64,000 bases of DNA from a virus: the IMG/VR virus record IMGVR_UViG_3300033155_000498, positions 1 to 64,000 of that record; one strand, written 5' to 3'. A model generated the notes under the pieces. The model was not told the origin of the DNA and made no database searches. It saw only the letters and a list, made by a program, of their open reading frames with translations. Numbering within the stretch: the stretch's first letter is position 1; each line of letters starts with the position of its first letter. Positions 9,245-46,952 of the stretch are shown here, piece after piece. The translations under genes and the position numbers were made by a program.

Positions 9245-10237
9245 TTAAAAGTACTTTGCATTATGTTCTGAGTATTCAAGCCAGTTTTTACCTGCTCGTA
9301 TACGGCGGTGGGTGCCTAATCTACCTAATTCTGCTGCTAGTCCTGGGGTCATTTCAAACCCAGCTATGCTGGCTGCTGTTGACAAGTTCATGTGTCCAAG
9401 CATACCCGGACCTTGTTCGTGATCCCAAACAACAACTAATGGATTTTGACTTGTTGTTTCTGGTTTGCCATCTTCTGTAACTTTGCCACGGGACTTGCGT
9501 ACTGCATTAACAGCATTAATAACCTTCTTTGCTAGTGCAACGAATGTCTCACCGTTGTTAACTTTAAATTCTTCTTCTACATCGGATATATGGCTAGCAA
9601 ACAATCCCATGCGTTTAATCTGTGCTATCAGCTCTTGCATATTAATATCAATTGGCTTGCTTTCGGTAACGGCTTTAGATTCAAATGCTGATTGATGTAG
9701 CTGTTGATTTGTGGCTGCGTCTGGAATAGGTATACGATTTGCTGCTTGATATGCAATTTTATTCCACATGTGTTCTGGTGCATCTAGTTCGTGTGCAATG
9801 TCCTTAAGATACATGTGTAGTGCTGTATCCTCATCACCGCCCATAACAACAGACATTAACATCTCTTGGTCTTGTGACCCGGTTAGTATAACTAGTTCTA
9901 CCCAGTCATCAAATGACTTTGTATCGTTCTCTTCTCTAACGGGCCTATTTTGTAATTTGTTGATACGATCTCTAAGATCATTTAACTCGGATTCTTGATC
10001 GTTGTTTACTCTTTCGTTGTCATCAATTTCAACGTCCTGATCCTTATTGTAAATATCCAAAGAATTAAGTTCTTTGTCTTGAACTTGTTGTTCATCGCCC
10101 ATCATACTAACCAATGCGCCCAAATCATCATCAGCTGAACCGTGATATTTTGATCTTGCTCTTAGGAGTGTTTGTATAACTCGAGGATCTTTTGACTTAA
10201 TATTGTCGGCTTTTTCAAATAGTTCAAATAGTTTCAT
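9245..10237 (-). CDS. Protein with possible capsid-targeting N-terminus, 330 aa
   Basis: Begins MKLFELFEKADN. The middle part (residues about 45-95) is a long acidic helical stretch with a predicted coiled coil (NDQESELNDLRDRINKLQN). The C-terminal part ends in a compact GLAAELGRLGTHRRIRAG segment. No enzyme motif was recognised. TAATG overlap with the gene upstream. The N-terminal peptide and the gene block suggest a capsid-packaged protein (inference). Confidence 0.62.
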   Translation of the reverse strand: MKLFELFEKADNIKSKDPRVIQTLLRARSKYHGSADDDLGALVSMMGDEQQVQDKELNSLDIYNKDQDVEIDDNERVNNDQESELNDLRDRINKLQNRPVREENDTKSFDDWVELVILTGSQDQEMLMSVVMGGDEDTALHMYLKDIAHELDAPEHMWNKIAYQAANRIPIPDAATNQQLHQSAFESKAVTESKPIDINMQELIAQIKRMGLFASHISDVEEEFKVNNGETFVALAKKVINAVNAVRKSRGKVTEDGKPETTSQNPLVVVWDHEQGPGMLGHMNLSTAASIAGFEMTPGLAAELGRLGTHRRIRAGKNWLEYSEHNAKYF

Positions 10238-11538
10238 TATTTTCTGCCTGTGCGTGGAAAGCTATCTTGGTGTAGTTCTTTATATTCTTCACGGACATTT
10301 GCCATAATTTCGCGCTGGTATGATGGATCAAGGAATTTTTTCGTGGCTTGCTCAACATACTCTTTTTCGTTCTGTGCATTGGTCCTGCCAGGTCCTTCAT
10401 CTTCCCAGACTTCTTTAGCTAGCCGCACACCTTCTTGGAATAACTCTTCTGCTAATGCAGATACTAATTGATCAATTTTAGCATCTTGACCGCTGCTAAT
10501 AGTATTCGAACCGTCTTCCTGGAATGCGTCATCTGACAATTCGTCACCTGGTAATCCTGCTGCGTCTATCATATCGTTAGTTACACCAAAGCCTATATCG
10601 TTTGATTCTATTTCAATCGAATACGAAACAATCTCGCCTTTGTAACGGTCGCTTACATGTGATTCTTTAGCAGTAACATGAATTGTGTTGCCCTGGGCCA
10701 TTAAACGTTTCATGTCGCTAACCATACCATCGAAGTTTGCTGTTGTATCTGTGCCGCCTTCTTTAACTGGCTCTTCGGCTAAGTCAAACTTACCGTTTTC
10801 ACCTTTGTTTAATGAACCTTTTTCTTTTAATTTACTGTAGAATTCTTTTTCTAAGCGTGAAGTCTTATCTGCTTCAGCTTCATCCATTGAACGGAAAATG
10901 TCTGCTAATGATTGTTTCTTAGGTGCAACTGTATCTTCGTGTATCTCACCATGACCTTTGCATGTTGGGCATGTATCGCCGTATGCTGTGCCGTCACCAT
11001 TACAGTCTGGGCACGTTGTAGTTGCTGGTTCAAATTTAGCTTTGTCGCGTTTAAGTTTGTTTGTTCTAGCGTCTGCGTCAAACGGAACAACTAATGAATC
11101 TGGTTCTTCCTTTAAATCTTTATTTTGATCGTCTAGATCTATGGAACCCATTGACTGATGGCCCATTGCTTGTTGCCTGCGTTTGTCACGCTTATCTTGC
11201 ATCACATCTTTAATTTTAGCAGTAACCACGCCAGTCATATTTTCCTGGTCCCATCTATGATCTAGTTCGTCTGCGTTTGGCTCATCATCGTATTCACCGC
11301 CTACTAGGAATTTACTTGCTGGGTGCTTTGTGGCTGTATTCTTTGCCATTTTATGTTGCGCTGGCATTTGGTTAACACTTTTCTGCGCTGAGTCTAAACC
11401 TTCGAGAATGTTTTTCATTGCTGCATTATCGGTGATTTTATTCTTAGTTGGTGTGACTTCTGTTAAAGGCTTATCCTTGTCAGGCGTTGCTGCTTTATCA
11501 AACCCCTTTAAGATATCTGTCATTTTAAAATCGTTCAT
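10237..11538 (-). CDS. Acidic late protein with zinc-ribbon (DnaJ-type CxxCxGxG pair), 433 aa
   Basis: The start at 11538 has AAGGA; a longer frame to 11664 would run into the neighbouring short gene. The protein is acidic and low in complexity. Two motifs, CPDCNGDG and CPTCKGHG (near residues 178-200), form a four-cysteine zinc site like half of a DnaJ zinc finger. No J-domain is present. It may be a scaffold or internal head protein. It lies inside the capsid-targeting block but its own N-terminus (MNDFKMTDIL) does not match that peptide. Confidence 0.62.
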   Translation of the reverse strand: MNDFKMTDILKGFDKAATPDKDKPLTEVTPTKNKITDNAAMKNILEGLDSAQKSVNQMPAQHKMAKNTATKHPASKFLVGGEYDDEPNADELDHRWDQENMTGVVTAKIKDVMQDKRDKRRQQAMGHQSMGSIDLDDQNKDLKEEPDSLVVPFDADARTNKLKRDKAKFEPATTTCPDCNGDGTAYGDTCPTCKGHGEIHEDTVAPKKQSLADIFRSMDEAEADKTSRLEKEFYSKLKEKGSLNKGENGKFDLAEEPVKEGGTDTTANFDGMVSDMKRLMAQGNTIHVTAKESHVSDRYKGEIVSYSIEIESNDIGFGVTNDMIDAAGLPGDELSDDAFQEDGSNTISSGQDAKIDQLVSALAEELFQEGVRLAKEVWEDEGPGRTNAQNEKEYVEQATKKFLDPSYQREIMANVREEYKELHQDSFPRTGRK

Positions 11539-11539
11539 A

Positions 11540-11710
11540 TTAATCCTTGCCTGCGCTGTTAGCGTATTTACCGGTTTTCTTGGCTTTACTCTTCTTTTTG
11601 GTATTACCGTATACAGATGCATTACGTGTAAATGCTGGCGCAAGGGCAGACGATACTGTAGCAATGCCGCCTGCGGAAGTTGTTTCTGTTATAAATTCAT
11701 TTGCTCTCAT
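11540..11710 (-). CDS. Short capsid-targeting-peptide protein, 56 aa
   Basis: A 57-codon frame from ATG at 11710, with ATGA overlap to the upstream gene and its stop 1 nt before the next start. It begins MRANEFITET, very close to the T4 internal-protein leader MKTYQEFIAEA, and ends in a basic tail (NTKKKSKAKKTGKYANS). The pattern, leader plus small basic body, is that of T4 internal head proteins. The predicted prohead-protease cut would follow ITE. Confidence 0.68.
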   Translation of the reverse strand: MRANEFITETTSAGGIATVSSALAPAFTRNASVYGNTKKKSKAKKTGKYANSAGKD

Positions 11711-14219: not shown

Positions 14220-15151
14220 TCGTCTGTGCTCGTTACTATTAATACTGGGACTTCGTTTACGCCAGCTTTAATAGCTGCCATTGAACGATGTACGCCTTCC
14301 TGCGACACTCGTGGACCACGTGAATAATCTAATGTAAGGATCGGAAACTGCTCTCCGTCTATCATCTTTTGTGTATATTTCTCAACTAACTCCGCATCAC
14401 GCTGTTTTGTAACTTGCTCAACAGTTTTACCAAACCCGTCTGCAACTCGATTTAAATATTCGCTTGGAGACATGTTAACTAACTCTGATACTAGGCCTTT
14501 TGCTCTTTCAAAGTATTCTGGATTTTGCATCATGTTATCGTAAAATGGCATTTCTGTTGTGTCTTTATGGAATGCATTTTGTATATCTTCGTTAGTTGGA
14601 TCGCCTTTGTCAACATCATCTTCAGCTGGTACTGGTGGCTTATTATGCCAAACTGATGTGTCGCTTATCCTACTCATGCTACCATAATCAATATAGCGAT
14701 TGTTACGCTTCACCCAAAGCAAGCCGCCTGCACGTAACGCTGGTTCGTACTTGTCTGACCCAAACTCCCCGGAAACTGTGCCGAGGTCTTTCGAACGTGG
14801 TTTACTTTTAAGTACTTCCCAAACGTGTTCTATTACAGATTCAACAGTTGGGAATAATGTTTTAATTGTTGAATATTTTCGTCCCAAGCGTCTAAGATCA
14901 CTATCGTTAACATAAAAATAACCAGGATCTTTATATCGAACGCCATCACCACGTGTCCAAACGCGCATGCCAGGATCTTTAACGTGTATTAGTGCAAGGT
15001 TAACTTTTTGATCTTTGAGTGCTAACATTGTTCTACGCTTGCCAGTCATTTTTTCTAAAACTGTGCGACTAATCTCTTTGTTTAGAGCGTCAGCAATAGC
15101 ATTAACTTTACTAAACATACTGGCTTCTGTTATAAAATCATTTGCCTTCAT
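14216..15151 (-). CDS. Capsid-targeting-peptide protein with ParB-like C-terminal region, 311 aa
   Basis: Begins MKANDFITEASMF: targeting leader with predicted cut at ITE/A. The middle is unrecognised (KNNRYIDYG, GDGVRYKDPGYFYV). The C-terminus, FPILTLDYSRGPRVSQEGVH then RSMAAIKAGVNEVPVLIV, matches the ParB/Srx-type nuclease pattern where a substrate loop (GxHR) is followed by helix AAxxAG and strand xxPVxV. This suggests a nuclease or NTP-binding role inside the capsid, or after injection. ATGA overlap with both neighbours. Confidence 0.65.
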   Translation of the reverse strand: MKANDFITEASMFSKVNAIADALNKEISRTVLEKMTGKRRTMLALKDQKVNLALIHVKDPGMRVWTRGDGVRYKDPGYFYVNDSDLRRLGRKYSTIKTLFPTVESVIEHVWEVLKSKPRSKDLGTVSGEFGSDKYEPALRAGGLLWVKRNNRYIDYGSMSRISDTSVWHNKPPVPAEDDVDKGDPTNEDIQNAFHKDTTEMPFYDNMMQNPEYFERAKGLVSELVNMSPSEYLNRVADGFGKTVEQVTKQRDAELVEKYTQKMIDGEQFPILTLDYSRGPRVSQEGVHRSMAAIKAGVNEVPVLIVTSTDE

Positions 15152-18100
15152 TGTGGGTAGTGTCCTATATTTTTCATTAAGTTTTTAAATACTTCTTCAG
15201 CGGCAGATGCCTCATTGCCGTGTATGTCACGCTCAACTTCCATTCCTTCCAACCAGCGCATGTTTGCATCCATATCTTCTACACTGTGCCTATCAGCAAT
15301 CATTTGTATTGCGTCACGATGTGACTTTGGTATAGCCGGAGTGCCGTCGTCAACTGCTGGAGCGGCTTGTTTAGCACGTCTACTCTTTAGCTGATTAATT
15401 AATTCTTCCTTGGTAATCATACCTGCGTTAAATGCTGCAAATAAAGTAAACGCTGGTTTGTCTGCTTCGCCCTGTCCTACATTGGATGCTAACTTATATA
15501 ACTTCTTAGCGTATTCTTTCTTGTACGCTGCTGGATCTGCTGCTACTGCATACGCAACAATAAAGCGGTTTATAGCTGCAAAGATAGCTTCAATATCGTG
15601 GAAGTAGTCTTCGCCGCCTGCGGATCTAAACTCGATCCAGCCATCCCTAACACCCACTGACGCAAATTTACCAAAGCTAATATTGTTAAAGGAATTACTA
15701 ACTGCATGACTCAGATCACCTTTCATTTTAGACATTAGCATTGCAAGTGATTTTTCCTTGCCTGGTTTATCTCTTTCGAAACCTTGTCGTGCATCCATCA
15801 TATCACTTAGTTGTGTGAGTGAGTGTACTGCATATTCGTTAAACTCGCGCCCAAAATGTTTTAATATATGTGCGTCACCTAGCATAATAACTAACTTCGC
15901 ATAATCCAATTTAGATTGATCCACTTTAGCAAGGCTTACGTTAATATGTAAACCTGTTGATTCGTTTGCATACGCGCCCTTGCCCTTTAGATATTCAATA
16001 ACTGCTTCAACATTCTCAATACCATCTACATAATTCATTTTTGATGTGACTATTTCCAAACCACTATCACCATCGTTATTCGGCTTAATGGACGCATCGC
16101 TTGTAACTGACCACGTTGTACTTGTATCAGTATCACCGTAACTGTCGCCGCCATCTACCGAAACACTTTCACCGGATATGTCTTCTAAGTCGCTTGCAAC
16201 TTGATGTGCAAGTTCTTCGTCAAAATCTTCTTGGTACAATGGACCACCGGGCCAAGTTAAATCACCGGACCATTCGTTATATACATCGCCCATGCTGTTT
16301 AAATGTACCTGGCGTAACCACGTACCAACAGAATAATCATAATCATTGACTGCTATTTCTGTCTCATAGAATTCTTGCTGATAAAATTCATTTAATGCTT
16401 CTATAGCTTCCACATTGTCAGCAACGAAAACTTCATAGTATAAAAGTAAGTACGGGTCGGTGGCTTCCTGCACAGGCCACTGTTCAGCATCGCCGTCTGT
16501 TTTATATGCATCGTGTGCCACACGTAACACTTCATTGGCAATCTCTTCTGTTATCTCAAGATCGTCTTCGTCTACTTTCTCACCTGCTTTATCAGCAAGA
16601 TCGTTTTTAATTCTAATAATAGCATCGTCTGCATCACTTGAGTTAACATACAGGTCTGTCATTATTTCTACTTTCTTAGTGTCTTCAACAGTTGGATTAT
16701 TAAGAGCATCGTCTACTTCACTTGTCTGCCAAGCTGATGCCCGTTCGTCTATCCATTCTTGATGCGCTGCCATCATAGTTTCAAACGCTTCGTCGTTGTC
16801 TGTGTCGTATGTAAAGAATTCGCGTATGTCGTCAAATGATGTGTGTTTAGTAATGTCCGGATTTGCTTCTGTGTCTCGCTGAATTATAACTTCAAACTCA
16901 AGTCCAATCATTGGATCAACTGATTGTATAATACTGTTTACATGCTTCTGCAATCCGCCCGGTGACATGTTAAGCTCGTTAACAAGCCCTTCGAATATAT
17001 TATTAACTGTTTTAGTTTTGCCGTTTGTTTTTAGTATTGGCGGTACACCACCTACTGTTACCGTGTGCCCTAATTTTGCTGCTTCTATTTTAGTTTGGTT
17101 AACTCCAACATCGCATGTTGTGTTAACACCTTGAACAATGCGGCCTTGTTCATTAATCTGTGTGCCTACAACTTTATGTACTAATCGTTTCGCTTCTTTA
17201 GTTCTGTCTGCTGCTATTAAACGTGTAAGTAAATCAATCTGTGCTTTTGGTGCTATTTTATAAAATTGACTGATTTCGTTAGGGCCGGTATCTGTAGCGA
17301 ACTTAGTAAGATTTGATGCTGCTTCGTAGATATAGTCATAATCAAAATCATCAAACAGGCTTTCTCTCGCTGCCATTAAACGTTTGACCATTCCTTCTGT
17401 TGCTTGTGTTGTTGTACCTGTTTCAAGCTCTGCACGTAGCTCTTGTGCTAATGTATCGGGTTCGTCTTTCTTTTGCTCAAGACTTAACTTACTGTCTTCG
17501 TGCCCGCGCCTCTTAGCCCAAAGTTTTGCAAAGTAACCATCTGTGCGTAGCATTTTAAATGCTAAGTTCTCAGGTCCAAACTCTCCAAACTCGTCTAGTC
17601 CAGCGGATCTGTACTTCTTAACTAGATCTAAAACACTGTTTAAATATTCTGAATCGTCGGAGGCCAATGCACGAATAGCAAGGTTCTTTAGTTTGTCGTA
17701 TTTTAATAAGGTTGCAGTATCGTTAAGGTTTGCACGTTGCTTAGATGGAATCTTATTCCACTCATCCTTCATAACACTGTAGCTACCTAAGGAATGATGT
17801 GGTTCTGCTGCATCTTGTACGTACAGCTCAACTTCATATCCTTTAATTTTAATATCGTGGTTGTGATTGTATTGATACTTCTTAGCATCAAACATTTCTT
17901 TATAAACTTCGTTATTTGGAAGTTTTGTAAAGTCTACTATAAGGTGTAAGTCAACATCTGAGTGTGGTGTATAACTATATGCTGCATTAGATCCACTTAC
18001 TTCGATATCAACTAATGCGATGTTCTGTACGCCTAAGAACTCGCGGAAATGATCCGCAATCTCTATTAGTTTATTACGTACCAGCGGGCGCATCTTGTCA

Positions 18101-18183
18101 TTCATAAAGATTTGTGGATTCAAATCAGTATTAAAGTTTATGGCCTTCGTTAGTTGGAAGTTGTCGAGTTCTTCTAAATTCAT
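15148..18183 (-). CDS. Large nucleotidyltransferase and amidoligase-like fusion protein, 1011 aa
   Basis: N-terminus: a polymerase-beta-type nucleotidyltransferase signature, GSNAAYSYTPHSDVDLHLIV, with Gly64-Ser65 and Asp76/Asp78. C-terminal half: a set of motifs like the Amidoligase_2 (COOH-NH2 ligase, glutamine-synthetase-like) family: IGLEFEV (about 425), GLEIVTSKM (about 706), TGLHINVSL (about 741) and WIEFRSAGGEDYF (about 847). The middle, residues about 250-420, resembles phage structural linkers. Amidoligases join amino groups to carboxylates using ATP; no substrate can be read here. Leaderless-type late promoter. It precedes the ParB-like capsid-targeted gene by an ATGA overlap. Confidence 0.68.
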   Translation of the reverse strand: MNLEELDNFQLTKAINFNTDLNPQIFMNDKMRPLVRNKLIEIADHFREFLGVQNIALVDIEVSGSNAAYSYTPHSDVDLHLIVDFTKLPNNEVYKEMFDAKKYQYNHNHDIKIKGYEVELYVQDAAEPHHSLGSYSVMKDEWNKIPSKQRANLNDTATLLKYDKLKNLAIRALASDDSEYLNSVLDLVKKYRSAGLDEFGEFGPENLAFKMLRTDGYFAKLWAKRRGHEDSKLSLEQKKDEPDTLAQELRAELETGTTTQATEGMVKRLMAARESLFDDFDYDYIYEAASNLTKFATDTGPNEISQFYKIAPKAQIDLLTRLIAADRTKEAKRLVHKVVGTQINEQGRIVQGVNTTCDVGVNQTKIEAAKLGHTVTVGGVPPILKTNGKTKTVNNIFEGLVNELNMSPGGLQKHVNSIIQSVDPMIGLEFEVIIQRDTEANPDITKHTSFDDIREFFTYDTDNDEAFETMMAAHQEWIDERASAWQTSEVDDALNNPTVEDTKKVEIMTDLYVNSSDADDAIIRIKNDLADKAGEKVDEDDLEITEEIANEVLRVAHDAYKTDGDAEQWPVQEATDPYLLLYYEVFVADNVEAIEALNEFYQQEFYETEIAVNDYDYSVGTWLRQVHLNSMGDVYNEWSGDLTWPGGPLYQEDFDEELAHQVASDLEDISGESVSVDGGDSYGDTDTSTTWSVTSDASIKPNNDGDSGLEIVTSKMNYVDGIENVEAVIEYLKGKGAYANESTGLHINVSLAKVDQSKLDYAKLVIMLGDAHILKHFGREFNEYAVHSLTQLSDMMDARQGFERDKPGKEKSLAMLMSKMKGDLSHAVSNSFNNISFGKFASVGVRDGWIEFRSAGGEDYFHDIEAIFAAINRFIVAYAVAADPAAYKKEYAKKLYKLASNVGQGEADKPAFTLFAAFNAGMITKEELINQLKSRRAKQAAPAVDDGTPAIPKSHRDAIQMIADRHSVEDMDANMRWLEGMEVERDIHGNEASAAEEVFKNLMKNIGHYPQ

Positions 18184-20196: not shown

Positions 20197-20646
20197 TCAG
20201 TATTTATCTGTTATTTCAAACAATGGTTCTTGATCTTCTAACCAGTCTTTTATCATTTGTAGCTCTGTACGTGTTTTGACTGGATTATTAGGAAAGACCA
20301 ACCCATCTATAGTTAGATCATATATGATACCGTCTCCGCTATCCTTACCACTGGATATCGGCACCAGCTGAAGATCAGTTTCTTCAATTAATTGAGATGC
20401 AATCTTACCCATTGGCGTTGGAAGCATTTCTACATGAGCTACAACATAGTCACCCTCTATAGAAAGGATCGCTTTAGCTGCAATGCGATCCATAGTAGAC
20501 GACTTAGGCACCGGGTATTCATCAAACGTAACAATACCAAGACCTTTGTTGAATTCTTCAACTGCTTTAACTAGTTCGTCTCTGGGGTAGATTCTACCTC
20601 TGCCATTGCCTGATACGACATCGCATTTGTAAATCTTTGCTTTCAT
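20197..20646 (-). CDS. Degenerate prohead core protease (gp21)-like protein, 149 aa
   Basis: The layout follows T4-type prohead proteases: an NGRGRIYPRDELVKAVEEFN start, DR(I)AAKAILSIEG, then LPTPMGKIASQLIEETDLQL followed by VPISSGKDSG, where active enzymes have VSxRGxG. The usual GE(L)xHP that supplies the catalytic His reads FDEYPVPK here, so the His is absent, and the protein is shorter than gp21 (about 210 aa). It may be an inactive paralogue or a diverged member; the active gp21 that would cut targeting peptides is probably elsewhere. Confidence 0.5.
   Translation of the reverse strand: MKAKIYKCDVVSGNGRGRIYPRDELVKAVEEFNKGLGIVTFDEYPVPKSSTMDRIAAKAILSIEGDYVVAHVEMLPTPMGKIASQLIEETDLQLVPISSGKDSGDGIIYDLTIDGLVFPNNPVKTRTELQMIKDWLEDQEPLFEITDKY
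20201..20206 (-). promoter_or_regulatory. T4-type late promoter, leaderless spacing
   Basis: GATAAATA, CTGAT, ATG (20195). The same six-plus-five bases as the promoter at 18189. Confidence 0.64.
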
Positions 20647-22964
20647 TACTTGTCAGGTTTAAATTGATCTAAAATAATATACCCATCATCGTCTGTGCCG
20701 CCAGGCTCTGGAGTGCCAGCTAATGGCTTAGGCAATGCTGCTGGCTGGATACCTTGCTTATTAAGGAATATAATCTCATCATCTTTTAAGTCTGCTACTA
20801 TGGAACAATGACTTAAACCTTCAAACAAGATGCGCTTGCTAAGTGGTTTCTTAAGCAATTCAGAAATTTCACGCTTAATAGGTCTAGCACCAAGAGCTGC
20901 ATCATAACCAACTGATGCGATGTGTGTAATTACAGTCTCATTAACGTGCAAATCGATCTTCTTAGATTTAAGGTTGTCTTTAAGTTCTTTGATAAACTTA
21001 ATAACAATCTTCTTGATATCCATATCTTCAAGTTTCTTAAATTTAGCAATACCATCAAGTCTGTTACGGAACTCTGGGCGGAAGAACTCTTTAACTGCTT
21101 TATCTTCTTCACCTGTGCGTTCCATATCTGTAAAGCCGATACGGTTCTTTTCATTCTCAGCGGCACCAAGGTTGGATGTTAGTATAATAATACAGTTACG
21201 TAGACTAACTTCCTTACCACTACGACTAGTAATCTTGCCTTCGTCTAGTACCTGTAACATTACGTTCATAACGTCCGGGTGTGCCTTTTCTACTTCGTCA
21301 AATAGTAGTACAGAGAATGGGTGTTTGCTAACATCTGAAATTAACTTACCACCACCGCCTGCATCTTCAAATCCAACATAGCCTGGTGGAGCACCAATTA
21401 ATGATGCCACTGTGTGCTTCTCCATGTATTCTGACATGTCGTAACGTAGCAGTTCCATATCCAAATTATCACTAATTAACTTAGCAAGTTCTGTTTTGCC
21501 TGTGCCTGTTGGGCCAAGGAATAAGAAACTTGCGACCGGTTTGTTCTCTTCTGAAAGTCCACTAAAGTTAACATAGATCTTATCTAGTACTTCATCGACG
21601 GCTTGTTCCTGACCGTACAGCTTGTCATCTATGTTATGCCTAAGCGAGATGAGTGATGCACTCTTTTCGTTACTTAGACGCTCAACTGGAACACCTGTTA
21701 TTTTACTAACTTGAACAATAACTTTATCTTCCGTTATAATTGCGGCCTGGGTATCATTTGCGCGTTCCTTAGCACATGCGGCATCGAGAATGTCAATTGA
21801 TTTATCAGGGTTCTTTCTATTGTGTATGTAACGACTGCTTAAATCAACCGATGCCTCGATGGCTTCTTTATTAATTCGCACCTTGTGGAATTCACTTAAT
21901 CGATCGGCAACACCTGTTAGTATCTTGATCGTAGTTTCGTGATCTGGTTCATCAATTGTTAAGTTGTAGAACCTACGCATTAATGCTTTATCTTTTTCAA
22001 AGGACTCGTAGTATTCGTCCCATGTAGTGTTCGCAACAACCTTAATCTTGCCGCGTGTGATTACTGGTTTTAACATGTTTGCAAAGTCTAAGTTAGAACC
22101 TCCTCCTGCACCAGCACCTTTCATTGTGTGCGCTTCGTCAATAAACAAAATGCCGTTACCAGATGCTTCAAGTGCATTAATAACTTTCTTAAATTTATCT
22201 TCAAAGTCGCCCCTGTACTTACTACCGGCTAGCATATCGCTAATATTGAGTTCCCATACAGTGTGATCATGTAAGAACGCAGGAACTGTCTTGGCAATAA
22301 TTTGTTGTGCTAGGCCTTCAACGATTGCAGTTTTACCTACGCCCGGATCGCCTATCATTAGCACATTAGACTTAAATTTCTTAGCAAGGATTTCAATTGC
22401 GTCTCTGACTTCTTCAGTACGACCAATAAGCGGTTCTAACTCGCCCTTCTCGGCTCTAGCTGATAAGTTAGTGCAATGTTCTTCAAGCAACTCTGCAGAC
22501 TGTACATCTGACAAGCCGCCTGTTGCATTGTTATAATGTTCGTTCCAGTATTCAGCAAAGTTTTCTTTGTCGTCAATGCCGTACTTTAAAATAAAGTAGT
22601 GTGCATGGCTGTTAGTTTCGCTTGAGATACTTAGAAATAAATCAATTGTTGTAACATAACGTCTGCCGCTGAATAACACTTGTGTCACAGCACGGTTAAA
22701 TACGCGCTCTAGACTATTTGTTCTTTTTGGTGCTTCTTCAGTTGGCTGGCCCTGAGTTGTTGGCAATAATCCATCTAGATATTCTTCAATGTCTCCAATT
22801 AAATCATCTATTTTAACGCCGTAACCTTTAGCGCAAAAGTAGAATGGTTCATAGCTTAGAAGTGCGACAAGCAAGTGTTCGAGTAATACGTATTCGTGTC
22901 CTCGTTTTTTTGCTAGGGCAATTGCATAGTCTGTGATTTGTTCGATTTCTGGATTAATTTGCAT
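20646..22964 (-). CDS. clpA: ClpA-type AAA+ unfoldase, 772 aa
   Basis: The start at 22964 has AAAAGG; the frame to 23018 overlaps the upstream gene. N-terminal Clp-N helices (ALAKKRGHEYVLLEHLLVAL), D1 Walker A GDPGVGKT (about 204) with LFIDEAH, D2 Walker A GPTGTGKT (about 484), sensor region and FRPEFRNRLDGI arginine finger. There is no ClpB middle coiled coil. NRIGFTD at about 607 corresponds to the IGF/IGL loop by which ClpA and ClpX dock on ClpP. A ClpP is encoded at 46291. Together they should form an ATP-dependent protease; the target is unknown. Confidence 0.9.
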   Translation of the reverse strand: MQINPEIEQITDYAIALAKKRGHEYVLLEHLLVALLSYEPFYFCAKGYGVKIDDLIGDIEEYLDGLLPTTQGQPTEEAPKRTNSLERVFNRAVTQVLFSGRRYVTTIDLFLSISSETNSHAHYFILKYGIDDKENFAEYWNEHYNNATGGLSDVQSAELLEEHCTNLSARAEKGELEPLIGRTEEVRDAIEILAKKFKSNVLMIGDPGVGKTAIVEGLAQQIIAKTVPAFLHDHTVWELNISDMLAGSKYRGDFEDKFKKVINALEASGNGILFIDEAHTMKGAGAGGGSNLDFANMLKPVITRGKIKVVANTTWDEYYESFEKDKALMRRFYNLTIDEPDHETTIKILTGVADRLSEFHKVRINKEAIEASVDLSSRYIHNRKNPDKSIDILDAACAKERANDTQAAIITEDKVIVQVSKITGVPVERLSNEKSASLISLRHNIDDKLYGQEQAVDEVLDKIYVNFSGLSEENKPVASFLFLGPTGTGKTELAKLISDNLDMELLRYDMSEYMEKHTVASLIGAPPGYVGFEDAGGGGKLISDVSKHPFSVLLFDEVEKAHPDVMNVMLQVLDEGKITSRSGKEVSLRNCIIILTSNLGAAENEKNRIGFTDMERTGEEDKAVKEFFRPEFRNRLDGIAKFKKLEDMDIKKIVIKFIKELKDNLKSKKIDLHVNETVITHIASVGYDAALGARPIKREISELLKKPLSKRILFEGLSHCSIVADLKDDEIIFLNKQGIQPAALPKPLAGTPEPGGTDDDGYIILDQFKPDK

Positions 22965-22965
22965 A

Positions 22966-23340
22966 TTATACCTTTTTCTTTCGTTTGGCACGTTTGATGC
23001 CGTTATGCAGACGATCAATGGCTTTTCCTATCTCGCCATCCTCGTCTGAGATTGTAATCTGCTTCTCATTACCTAAATAATTTGTATAACTTATATGTAT
23101 TGTACTGTCTTCTTGATCTTTTTGCAAGTCTTTTATAGATGGATTGAAGAAAAAATGCGGTTTTATTTTGGTTACAAGTATTTTGGCATCAAGCCCAACG
23201 TCCGGACCAGTCAATGCTGACCTAGGAGTTAGGTTAAGTGCAATTAGCATCTCAATCCCTTGTTTTTGATTTGTAGTAGGAGCACTATATGTTACATCCT
23301 TGGCTGGTTTCTTCTGTGGTTTATCTTTTATTTTTAGCAT
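22966..23340 (-). CDS. Basic protein of unknown function, 124 aa
   Basis: Basic at both ends (KIKDKPQKKPAKD; GIKRAKRKKKV). The middle contains a predicted alpha/beta segment. Sits between the J-protein and ClpA genes, so a part in proteostasis or assembly is possible. Late TAAATA with 6-nt spacing to its ATG. Confidence 0.58.
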   Translation of the reverse strand: MLKIKDKPQKKPAKDVTYSAPTTNQKQGIEMLIALNLTPRSALTGPDVGLDAKILVTKIKPHFFFNPSIKDLQKDQEDSTIHISYTNYLGNEKQITISDEDGEIGKAIDRLHNGIKRAKRKKKV

Positions 23341-23346
23341 ATAAAA

Positions 23347-23352
23347 TATTTA
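23347..23352 (-). promoter_or_regulatory. T4-type late promoter, near-leaderless spacing
   Basis: CTAAATA, TTTTAT (6 nt), ATG (23340). Confidence 0.52.
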
Positions 23353-24090
23353 GTCCTTATCCTTCCGAATCAGTGCTAAAAGTGACTCGGAAATATCGTC
23401 TGGAATCTTCCCAACCAAGCGGACTAACAGGTCACCTTTTACTAAATGGTTTGATCTTGATTGTATTCCATTGCCCTTTACGCGCATATGAGTGCCAGGA
23501 TTTGTTCTCGGTGGGACCTTCAATCTTATTGTGCTGCCGTCTATTGTCCTAACATCTAATTCTGTTCCAGTAATTAAGTCCCAGATGCTTATGTCCTCAC
23601 CCTTAATTAAATCAAGATTTTGTACTTCCCATATAGTATCAGGTTGAATTCTAAATTTAATAACAACATCAATATTGTTTGCTAACTTTGGATATCTGAT
23701 TGCTTCGCCATTACGTATACCAGGCGGAATAGTTATTTCAACATTCTCATTTTTGCCATGTACTGGAATTTGCATTAGATGGTCGCCACCGAGAACTGCA
23801 TCTTTAAGTGATATTAGCATTGATAGACTAACTTGCATCTGATGGCGGAATCTTGCTTCTCGCAAGAAATCATTGATGTCGCCGGGTGTTTTAAAATTGA
23901 AACTTGCTGCTGTGAAGTCTGGTGGTCCGTCTTTAACTTGGTCGTATGCTGTTTGAAGTTCTTTAAACTTTTCGTCCCTGCCACCATTGCGGTCAGGATG
24001 AAGCTTCATAGCAAGACGTTTGTATGCTTTTTTAACTTCTTCTGTTGTGGCGTTTGATTCTAAACCAAGAACCTTATACGGATCACTCAT
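23350..24090 (-). CDS. dnaJ: DnaJ/CbpA-like J-domain protein, 246 aa
   Basis: The J-domain at residues 1-65 has the HPD motif (LHPDRNGG) needed to stimulate Hsp70. The Gly/Phe and zinc-finger parts are missing. The rest matches the C-terminal substrate-binding domains of CbpA-type proteins (MLISLKDAVLGGDHLMQIPV; TIPPGIRNGEAIRYP; LKVPPRTNPGTHMRVKGNGI). Presumably recruits host DnaK for virion assembly. Leaderless-type late promoter overlapping a hairpin. Confidence 0.88.
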   Translation of the reverse strand: MSDPYKVLGLESNATTEEVKKAYKRLAMKLHPDRNGGRDEKFKELQTAYDQVKDGPPDFTAASFNFKTPGDINDFLREARFRHQMQVSLSMLISLKDAVLGGDHLMQIPVHGKNENVEITIPPGIRNGEAIRYPKLANNIDVVIKFRIQPDTIWEVQNLDLIKGEDISIWDLITGTELDVRTIDGSTIRLKVPPRTNPGTHMRVKGNGIQSRSNHLVKGDLLVRLVGKIPDDISESLLALIRKDKD

Positions 24091-24135: not shown

Positions 24136-25194
24136 TTATTTAACTAGTTCTGGTTTGTAAACTGAACGTAAGCCAAGTGCTTCTGTGTTGAACTTAACAA
24201 GAGCTTTAAGTGCTGGCTCTGTAATAAGTCCATGTAAGATATCAACTGTCTTGTTACCATTCTGTCCAATTACCCAATCGTACTTGCCAATCTTCTTTTC
24301 TAAGATAGCAATTGATTCTGGATTCTTTGACATTTGCTCACATGCTGTACGGAACTTTTCAGTATTAGGATTGCCTTTGTTAACCCATAACGCTTTCTGA
24401 ATACTATCGCGCCATGTTTTAATAAGTAGGTACGCATCGTATAACTCACCACTCGGATATACACCGTGCTTCGCTTTAAATACATCTCTGAACAATTTAC
24501 CAGGATAGTTAATATCGTCTTCAGTTTTACCTGTTGCAATATTAAGTACACCATGATGGAACCAAGTTTCAGCTGAATTCACGTCAATGAATGGAACTAC
24601 CTTAGACTTATATGCTGCTGGATTTTCACGTGTGCCAAGTAGCTCACCTTTAGCAAATGCTAAACGTCTGCCTTTACCGTTTACCCATGTAACTTTGTCT
24701 TTAAAGATTGCAATGTACTCATCAACAGTTTTACCTGGACCACCAATCATCATAGCAATAGATAATCCTTCCGGTACCATACCACTACCAGCTGAGAAAC
24801 TAAATCCGTTATCTTCGTTAACGCCTGTGCGCTTTGCGACAATGATGTTTAAGTTTTGATGGCAAATTGAATCGTATTCTTTGTAGTCGTACTTTACTTT
24901 TTCTTGTACGTACGAAATACCGTTGCCGCCATGTGATACCATAATTGTGTTGTTATCAAAACGACTTGTTTTATGGAACTTGTTGAAACCTGCTTGATCA
25001 CGTGCGCCAGGATTGTAAGAAATAATAACATTCTCATCCTTAAGTGCTGGTGTCTTGGCTAGTTCCGTTGCAATGATGCCTGCCCATTGACTTGTACCTT
25101 TACCTGGTTTCTGTGGTACCATTAAAGTAACATCTGCAAATGCTGATGTGGTAATTGCTAATAACATTACTGCTATTATAGTTTTAATTTTCAT
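24136..25194 (-). CDS. tctC: TctC-like periplasmic tripartite-tricarboxylate binding protein, 352 aa
   Basis: A signal peptide is clear: [19 protein letters not shown] then DVTLMVPQKPGKGTS, the family start after cleavage. NPGARDQAG matches the GA-G motif that TctC/Bug proteins use. Such proteins deliver carboxylates (citrate, tartrate, malonate-like) to TctA/TctB. A transporter binding protein in a phage is an auxiliary metabolic gene. AGGAAA precedes the start. Divergent from canonical TctC in mid-region, so ligand cannot be guessed. Confidence 0.72.
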   Translation of the reverse strand: MKIKTIIAVMLLAITTSAFADVTLMVPQKPGKGTSQWAGIIATELAKTPALKDENVIISYNPGARDQAGFNKFHKTSRFDNNTIMVSHGGNGISYVQEKVKYDYKEYDSICHQNLNIIVAKRTGVNEDNGFSFSAGSGMVPEGLSIAMMIGGPGKTVDEYIAIFKDKVTWVNGKGRRLAFAKGELLGTRENPAAYKSKVVPFIDVNSAETWFHHGVLNIATGKTEDDINYPGKLFRDVFKAKHGVYPSGELYDAYLLIKTWRDSIQKALWVNKGNPNTEKFRTACEQMSKNPESIAILEKKIGKYDWVIGQNGNKTVDILHGLITEPALKALVKFNTEALGLRSVYKPELVK

Positions 25195-25251
25195 TCTAAT
25201 TCTAATTTTCCTGGTGTTACGATCAAGTCCTTTAGCTAACTTGCCGGGTTA

Positions 25252-26823
25252 CTACGAGTAATCAACAATGCCCTTGTTCTTCCAGCCCCATATAGAGACT
25301 ACAACAATAACAAGTGCAATGCCAATAAATGTTGGGTGGTTAAGTAAGTCATTGCTCGGTAATGACGCAATAGCTAGTTGACCTTCACCAACGTGATACC
25401 CGAATATCTCTTTAAGCCTAAGTAAGGGATATCCAGCTATATTAAATAATTGAAAAGTTTGTATCGTTAACTCTTCAATTTTGTATCCTAATATAAACCC
25501 GATCATCAATGCGGGCCTACTAAATTCGTATACCTTCGCCATGTAGCCTACTATTGTAAATACAATTAGTAGCACGACATTTTCTATACCGTAAGTTCCA
25601 AAGCCTGATGTGTATGTTGCCCATACTATTAAAGATAGTATTATGGGAAAGTAATATTTATATGGCACATAGACTATGCGGGAAATATATTTAATTGTGA
25701 ACAGGCAAATGATTCCTGTTAGTAAAGTTGCTGCCAAAAAGCCTAAACTCATAGCATTAAAGAAGAGCGGATCTTTAAGAACATTTTCACTGTCTAATGA
25801 CAGGTCAAAACCGATAGCAGTAAACAATCCTATTATAACAGCGGCAAACGGTGCGCCAGGTATTCCAAATAATACTGTTGGGATCATACTTGTTGCTTTC
25901 TGTGCGTTGTTGCTACCTTCTGGCCCAATGACACCTTTAATATTGCCATTGCCGAATTCCTCTTTTGGGTTCGTTGCAACGGTTTGTCCGTATGCTAACC
26001 AGTCACTTACTGTGCCGCCTATGCCTGGTAAAAATCCAACAACAGAACCAATCGCACCACCCTTTAACGATAGTTTCCATTCTTTAAAAGATATTGTAAA
26101 TCCATCTTTGACTTGTTGCCAATCGTCTACTTTATGATGCTTGGAGAATATCGATTCTTTTTGTAACGCAATTATCATTTCAGGCATTGCAAATATACCT
26201 GCCATAAGTGGAATTAACGGAATACCTTGACCACCATCGCCTTCTAAGAATTCCCAGCCCATTGTAAAACGTGGCGCTGCCGTAATCGGATCTGTTCCTA
26301 TTAGGCTTAAAAATATACCAACCCCAAGTGCAATTAATGAACGTAACCAAAACTTATTAGACACGAAGCTAACTGTTATAAATGCAAGTATACAAAATGC
26401 AAAAAGTTCAGACTGTCCAATGCCGCCCTGACTAGCAGGTAGTAATAAGAAGTCTTTGTAATAAGGTAATAACAAGAATGTTAACGCGCCGAACAATAGT
26501 CCGTTGATAGTTGATGTTGTAATGGCTGCTGATAGTGCATAACTTGCCTTGCCTTGTTGTGCAAGTGGAAAGCCGTCTACCATTGTTGCTGCTGAACTGT
26601 TCGAGCCAGGTATCCCTAGTAAAATAGCTGCGAATGTATCACCTGTTGTACTCGACGCGACTACTGCCATTATGAATACAACTGAAAGATAAGGGTCAAC
26701 ACTTTGTAACATAATTATAAAAGGAAATAGTGCAACTAATCCTGTAGTCGCGCCTGCTGCTGGCACAAGTCCTATAAACAATCCGTAAAATGTTCCTGCT
26801 AATAAAGCTAATAAGTATGTCAT
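25252..26823 (-). CDS. tctA: TctA-like tripartite tricarboxylate transporter permease, 523 aa
   Basis: Eleven or twelve hydrophobic segments and the family signatures: GLVPAAGATTGL at about residue 18, LLGIPGSNSSAATMVDGFPL at about 68, GDGGQGIPLIPLMAGIFAMPE, GFLPGIGGTVSDWLAYGQ and GPEGSNNAQKATSMIPTVLF with FGIPGAPFAAV. This is the large permease of the TTT family, which imports carboxylates with the help of TctC and TctB. No clear TctB is present; a 78-aa membrane protein is at 28129. Full length, with no frame damage. Confidence 0.9.
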   Translation of the reverse strand: MTYLLALLAGTFYGLFIGLVPAAGATTGLVALFPFIIMLQSVDPYLSVVFIMAVVASSTTGDTFAAILLGIPGSNSSAATMVDGFPLAQQGKASYALSAAITTSTINGLLFGALTFLLLPYYKDFLLLPASQGGIGQSELFAFCILAFITVSFVSNKFWLRSLIALGVGIFLSLIGTDPITAAPRFTMGWEFLEGDGGQGIPLIPLMAGIFAMPEMIIALQKESIFSKHHKVDDWQQVKDGFTISFKEWKLSLKGGAIGSVVGFLPGIGGTVSDWLAYGQTVATNPKEEFGNGNIKGVIGPEGSNNAQKATSMIPTVLFGIPGAPFAAVIIGLFTAIGFDLSLDSENVLKDPLFFNAMSLGFLAATLLTGIICLFTIKYISRIVYVPYKYYFPIILSLIVWATYTSGFGTYGIENVVLLIVFTIVGYMAKVYEFSRPALMIGFILGYKIEELTIQTFQLFNIAGYPLLRLKEIFGYHVGEGQLAIASLPSNDLLNHPTFIGIALVIVVVSIWGWKNKGIVDYS

Positions 26824-46290: not shown

Positions 46291-46878
46291 TTAAGCTCTC
46301 TTTAGGATAACCTCGTCTGCTAGACCGTATGCTACAGATTCATCTGCTGTCATAAAATTGTCACGATCTGTATCTGCGTAGATAGTTTTATAAGGCTTTC
46401 CGGTTACAGTAACGTACACATCATTTAATGCTTTCTTCCAACGCAAGGTTTCATTAGTATGAATTTCCATATCAGATGCTTGACCTTTATAGCCAGCTAG
46501 AACCTGATGTATCATATGCGTACTATGTTTCAACATCATGCGCTTGCCTTTGGTACCACTTGCTGCTAACAATGATCCCATGCTACATGCCTCGCCAGCA
46601 ACAATAGTCCTAACATCACACTTGATGAAGTTCATAGTGTCGATTACTGACATACCTGCTGTAACTGAGCCGCCTGGGCTGTTAATGTAAAAAAGGATTT
46701 CTGCATCTGGCGCTTCACTTTCCAAAAACAACATTTGAGCGACAATAACATTACAGCTATTATCGTCAACTACACCGTTAAGCATGATAATTCGTTCTTT
46801 GAGCAAGCGACTGTAGATATCATAACTACGTTCGCCGTTTGGTGTCTTTTCGATCACCATTGGTATTAATCCAGACAT
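46291..46878 (-). CDS. clpP: ClpP serine protease, 195 aa
   Basis: Start at 46878 with AGAGGAG; an upstream hydrophobic extension to 46950 lacks a ribosome site. Catalytic triad Ser99 (GEACSMGS), His124 (MIHQ), Asp173 (DRDNFM) with spacings 25 and 49, the same as in bacterial Clp[15 protein letters not shown] is the usual substrate-channel segment. No propeptide. Pairs with the ClpA-type unfoldase at 20646. Divergent from 46953. Confidence 0.95.
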
Positions 46879-46920: not shown

Positions 46921-46952
46921 GTAGAAAGAAAGCAATAGCAATTGGACCAATT

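Follow-up and report, generated by a model that had tools for sequence, protein, structure and literature searches.

The virus record analyzed here (78,393 bases, the first 64,000 of which constitute the window, that is, the whole stretch of DNA under study) probably encodes a Clp protease and chaperone network that is run by the phage itself and comprises the unfoldases ClpA and ClpX, the peptidase ClpP, the adaptor ClpS, DnaJ, and Hsp20 (Table 1). The retained motifs and the co-occurrence of these genes are best explained by a phage ClpAP(S)/ClpXP system; the sequences themselves show the components, the residues of their active and contact sites, and that they occur together in phage records.

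Table 1. Genes of the Clp set, their neighbors, and other ORFs of the record
Gene or ORF	Position	Strand	Features
475-aa ORF	10237-11664		Weak lone hit to the DnaJ zinc finger (PF00684, E = 4e-5; under the cut-off)
1011-aa ORF	15148-18183		Amidoligase domain (PF12224, E = 3e-9); matches of relatives come in pieces
149-aa ORF	20197-20646		Start overlaps the clpA stop
clpA	20646..22964	(-)	Two-ring Clp unfoldase, NRIGFTD ClpP-docking loop
124-aa gene	22966..23340	(-)	Predicted degenerate peptide-deformylase fold (jackhmmer and model); between dnaJ and clpA
dnaJ	23350..24090	(-)	J-domain (HPD; PF00226) and DnaJ C-terminal domain (PF01556); directly upstream, clpA operon
TctA-type region	24136-26823		Membrane protein of a tripartite tricarboxylate transporter (PF01970, E = 7e-92), with a putative TctC-like binding protein
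clpP	46291..46878	(-)	Peptidase of 195 aa with a Ser-His-Asp triad; lacks a propeptide
clpS	69313-69630 (past the window)	(-)	ClpS family match
hsp20	69689-70135 (past the window)	(-)	Between clpS and clpX
clpX	70435-71598 (past the window)	(-)	C4 zinc finger, AAA+ ring, IGF loop

The ClpA ORF is one uninterrupted frame of 772 amino acids opening with an ATG at 22964. It matches phrog_4871 (E = 4e-233, covering residues 2 to 736), contains the Pfam domains Clp_N, AAA, AAA_lid_9, AAA_2, and ClpB_D2-small, and aligns with the Escherichia coli ClpA structures over residues 3 to 721 (E = 2.5e-170). Both AAA+ rings have intact Walker A/B motifs, arginine fingers, pore loops (KYRG and GYVG), and sensor 2, and almost all of the 87 viral relatives share these ATPase and pore residues. 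NRIGFTD aligns with the IGL loop of E. coli ClpA; the frame, family matches, and alignment together bear out the initial annotation, which had read the gene as a full-length ClpA with a docking loop. The docking tripeptide is [IV]GF in every one of the 87 aligned metagenomic viral ClpAs (IGF in 81 and VGF in 6), IGF in 60 of 80 bacterial ClpAs, with the remainder showing kindred tripeptides, and IGF, IGV, IGM, LGM, MGM, VGM, VGF, or IGY in the named jumbo phages. With a loop of this type in all 87 viral relatives, the match is not due to chance, and the conservation on which the initial reading had been made to depend was found. The N-domain surface that binds ClpS is also retained in the alignment, with H22, E23, E28, T81, and R86, which we take from the ClpA-ClpS crystal structures to be the ClpS contacts, all kept; among the viral relatives, E28 and T81 are present in 87 of 87, R86 in 85, and H22 in 84.

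The clpA gene is tightly packed with its neighbors: no more than 9 bases separate any of dnaJ, the 124-aa gene, clpA, and the ORF after it, and the clpA stop codon overlaps the next ATG as TAATG. The J-protein named in the initial annotation belongs to this operon. A J protein bearing the HPD motif lies upstream of clpA at 87 of 91 loci, a few of which are duplicates, and the dnaJ-clpA neighborhood reaches as far as phages Atu_ph07, Phosso, and PAC2. Most near relatives keep the order dnaJ, clpA, and ORF19824, and in four of them the 124-aa gene lies between. In a set of 473 ORFs, jackhmmer ties the 124-aa protein to intact deformylases at the same place (E of ~1e-21), and its model, of low-to-moderate confidence (pLDDT 67.6), matches viral deformylases in Foldseek (E = 4e-4). 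The intact enzyme occupies this place in 13 relatives (Phosso and 12 metagenomic phages), all of which show HExxH and EGCLS and all but one an unaltered GxGxAxxQ; among the named phages and nearest relatives, Phosso was the only one found with an active deformylase. GxGxAxxQ, EGCxS, and HExxH are all absent from the 124-aa protein of the window and from those of L001, L002, L007, and L008, and in the window clade the stretch containing EGCLS has been deleted. These comparisons support the descent of the 124-aa protein from a deformylase but not its membership in the enzyme family; at a guess, it could be a pseudoenzyme that binds N termini or ribosomes.

Other features of the surrounding DNA were also recorded. 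The ORF that follows clpA has a weak match to phrog_207 (head-maturation protease); a prohead-protease reading of it was rejected since the match is weak and the ORF is absent from the clpA loci of relatives. The TctA-type gene is accompanied by a putative TctC-like binding protein, so named by appearance; the pair is conserved, preceding dnaJ in L001 and L002 and lying farther off in L008. RNA families and tRNAs were not found within the window. No excess of promoter-like sites was found in the clpA region; the clpP region, about 23 kb away and in a separate operon, holds 10 such sites against a shuffled mean of 3.8, which is suggestive at most for timing.

The ClpP matches PF00574 (E = 9e-71), and the canonical triad attributed to it in the initial annotation is confirmed as S97, H122, and D171; the triad is intact in all primary phage ClpP copies. 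A TTG start at 46950 was discarded as an artifact of ORF listing, as an AGAGGAG ribosome site precedes the ATG at 46878, from which the product starts MSGLIPMV at the start position of mature E. coli ClpP. At the docking positions (E. coli mature numbering), the window ClpP has L60, Y62, I90, A92, M112, L114, and I189. Within the aquatic clade, positions 62, 90, 114, and 189 of this pocket are kept or conservatively changed and positions 60, 92, and 112 are variable, being Leu, Ala, and Met in the window clade, to which the changes M92A and F112M are restricted; the pocket is otherwise mostly hydrophobic. Pocket residues incompatible with ClpA docking, named in the initial annotation as potential counterevidence, were not encountered: judged by its residues, the docking surface stays hydrophobic but differs at M92A and F112M, and nothing among these residues speaks against a possible docking. 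Some aquatic phages also possess a second, divergent ClpP-like gene (G019 at L345:2452-3674, where it adjoins clpP, as well as G008 and G012).

A different role for these two proteins has been considered, in which ClpP is the head-maturation (prohead) protease and ClpA is an assembly chaperone only. The PHROG matches of the window ClpP do include head-maturation families, a small gene beside clpA/dnaJ has likely relatives near clpA in Paride and Atu_ph07, by tail-fiber genes, and Iyer et al. suggested that ClpA may aid assembly. This role is nonetheless very improbable: the window ClpP lacks a scaffold extension at 195 amino acids versus the 622 positions of the phrog_94 profile and closely resembles the bacterial enzyme, the genes of its relatives go with clpX and clpS and not with capsid genes, and ClpA retains an intact ClpP-docking loop.

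The linkage to clpX and clpS becomes visible past the window. A search for Clp ATPase C-terminal domains recovered a ClpX of 387 amino acids, 47% identical to E. coli ClpX, with the PF06689 C4 zinc finger, a single AAA_2 ring, and an SQIGFTAD loop. This IGF-bearing ClpX is a second unfoldase that the phage itself supplies for its ClpP; the proposal that ClpA is matched by its own ClpP holds in that the peptidase is present but not in that ClpA would be its sole partner. The record also encodes ClpS, with the ClpS match at 69337-69573(-), which gives phage ClpA its own N-degron adaptor and which is missing from the initial annotation because the gene sits outside the window. Phage Paride and eight further aquatic records keep the order clpX-hsp20-clpS, and several have clpP close by. 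The same domain search detected no ClpX in the Rak2-like clade or in G028 (306,714 bases; L263, L276, and L280), a record that encodes ClpA and ClpS with only a divergent ClpP and may represent a different Clp arrangement.

Of the 14 named jumbo phages with a ClpA-like protein, 13 also have ClpP; the one without it is LR756501, which lacks the IGx loop. ClpS is likewise found in 13 of the 14 (the XaC1 match falls below the curated cut-off). Among 22 further viral records, the ten with ClpP are exactly the ten with ClpS; many of the surveyed records are fragments. The ClpA-bearing records of at least 200 kb number 25 (14 named and 11 metagenomic) and are related, so they are not 25 independent observations: 22 carry both ClpP and ClpS, three (G002, G010, and LR756501) carry neither, and none carries one alone. 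The agreement between ClpP and ClpS is partly due to the closeness of the genes (1.7 to 3.3 kb in several records), so that a fragment tends to include both or neither; G003, a fragment of 70 kb, has ClpP but no ClpS.

This distribution also bears on whether phage ClpA and ClpX hijack the host ClpP, with phage ClpP mixing into host rings and the host protease being tuned as a result. Docking is established in E. coli, where the IGL tripeptide of ClpA and the IGF tripeptide of ClpX enter clefts on ClpP (PMC7707817). Being generic, the IGF loop would fit host ClpP too, so mixed complexes are possible, and the pocket residues of aquatic-phage ClpP are near the bacterial ones. Moreover, the published reading is that jumbo-phage ClpS recruits host ClpAP, inferring that ClpS takes the place of ClpP in several phages and brings targets to the host protease (PMC7824862). 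However, an own ClpP in 22 of the 25 large records would then be needless, and phage CBB, cited for this recruitment, encodes its own ClpA and ClpP. The published inference does not fit its example protein, which we infer from accession series and annotation to be that of CBB, a phage with ClpA, ClpP, and ClpS. A hijacked host ClpP is an unlikely account.

The phage-run network, which we prefer, would work as follows. ClpA hexamers would dock through their IGF loops onto the phage ClpP barrel, for which ClpX hexamers would be a second partner by the same loops. ClpS would bind certain exposed N-terminal residues and pass the proteins bearing them to the ClpA N-domain, and ClpA would unfold the delivered proteins for destruction. 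DnaJ would recruit host DnaK and, together with Hsp20, complete a network of quality control and regulated degradation. The main use may be the clearing of misfolded or excess phage proteins and of selected host proteins during the burst of virion-protein production. We infer the docking of the phage pair, the N-degron delivery, the substrates, the timing, and the benefit.

A scan of viral contigs found at least 586 stretches that encode ClpA relatives, and ClpA is a near-core gene of the moraphages, a recently described aquatic lineage (PMC12619734). Phage ClpA is therefore not rare, and the remark in the initial annotation that a full-length copy is much less frequent finds no support. Matches in the Acinetobacter "phage" MD-2021a were rejected as phage genes because their neighbors mark bacterial contigs. 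In a quick tree with some long branches, phage ClpAs other than that of LR756501 formed a single clade (99* support) sister to bacterial ClpA, and a branch with 100* support set phage and bacterial ClpA apart from ClpB and LR756501, indicating that the gene is old and has been retained. The LR756501 protein (735-kb genome) has QGM in place of IGx and lies outside the ClpA clade, and its genome encodes neither ClpP nor ClpS. Phage ClpPs also stood apart from bacterial ClpP in their own tree, with no starred support. The ClpA tree argues against the genes being recent acquisitions from hosts with no selected joint function: the proteins are of bacterial type and highly similar to bacterial ones, ClpP above all, but the phage ClpAs form one deep clade apart from bacteria, are ~40 to 45% identical to E. 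coli ClpA, and keep all functional residues across very divergent jumbo phages. Recent acquisition is largely refuted by the tree and is extremely improbable.

The record also encodes a family B DNA polymerase along with clpA and clpP. Distances between phages were correlated at 0.84 for ClpA and ClpP, 0.93 for ClpA and the polymerase, and 0.88 for ClpP and the polymerase, and after the removal of the polymerase, the ClpA-ClpP signal was weak (partial r of 0.17, p = 0.045). As the distances follow the polymerase, ClpA and ClpP have been coinherited along the phage backbone with no strong private coevolution, and pair-specific coevolution was rejected given the weak residual. Of the comparison of phylogenies proposed in the initial annotation, the distance matrices show both genes following the phage backbone and each other only weakly.

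The residues N34, D35, and H66 (alpha-amine site), V43 and L99 (pocket), and K84 (ClpA contact) are invariant in 15 of 15 aquatic-phage ClpS proteins. The ClpS encoded by the window's phage has the family match, the alpha-amine site, and K84; in its pocket, Met40 is kept and Met62 is replaced by Ala, so that it lacks the canonical bacterial specificity pocket. Position 62 is Thr in 11, Ala in 3, and Val in 1 of the 15 phage proteins, and Met in none, whereas Met62 is found in 85 of 86 bacterial ClpS proteins, two rhizobial second copies included. The equivalent residue in Caulobacter, Met75, belongs to the specificity pocket (PMC12493166). By alignment, the loss of Met62 is a departure from the canonical N-degron pocket that leaves family membership unaffected; it may go back to a single ancestral change in one clade and so count once rather than 15 times. 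The ClpS of Rak2-like phages has an eroded N-degron site and Phe for K84, so the adaptor function may differ there. One record, G005 (L074 and L078), encodes two ClpS proteins, one of which is more bacteria-like, with Trp in place of the gate residue Met40. None of the 21 records searched encodes a Leu/Phe-tRNA-protein transferase, so the N-degron pathway would be whole only for primary degrons unless the host assists. It is conceivable, if doubtful, that large aquatic phages have an N-degron pathway of their own that follows an altered code, in which the Met62-changed ClpS would feed different N termini to phage ClpAP, normally stable host or phage proteins would become targets, and the inactive deformylase-fold protein would read N termini or nascent chains.

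The phage set shares with bacterial ClpAPS, as in E. coli, the domain order, the ATPase and pore residues, the IGx loop, the ClpP triad, the ClpS alpha-amine site, and the ClpA-contact residues. It differs in being phage encoded, in a ClpP that lacks a propeptide, in having Thr, Ala, or Val (Ala in the window's phage) for Met62 of bacterial ClpS, and in placing clpS beside hsp20 and clpX instead of beside clpA. Among phages, ClpX, ClpA, ClpP, and ClpS have been listed together in the description of Atu_ph07 (PMC6102473), in which ClpA is beside DnaJ as in the window; there the proteins are described gene by gene, and the phage also has ClpB, while the relatives of the window show a conserved package with hsp20 by clpS and a deformylase-fold gene by clpA. 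Rak2-like phages (GAP32, CBB, XbC2, SNUABM_19, and KP13-7) resemble the window's phage in having ClpA, ClpP, and ClpS but have no ClpX, a much more divergent ClpP, and no dnaJ adjoining clpA. Moraphages likewise have ClpA, with DnaJ and HSP20 in some members, and ClpP and ClpS are not discussed in the consulted portion of their description (PMC12619734).

Phage ClpP, ClpA, and ClpS have been reported piecemeal, with reviews mentioning single components, and a literature search that was thin on subscription journals found no paper treating the Clp set as a conserved phage system. What is new, as far as checked, is that the co-occurrence is nearly universal, that clpX, hsp20, and clpS form a cluster, that the ClpS pocket is altered, and that a degenerate deformylase adjoins clpA. 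Most giant phages that bear ClpA carry the whole protease and its adaptor, to which the window clade adds ClpX and Hsp20, and this raises the question of whether a viral N-degron protease is at work during infection and what its degron code would be, for which the clade-wide change in the ClpS pocket offers a simple biochemical handle. A phage-run Clp set may give the virus control over the survival of proteins during infection.
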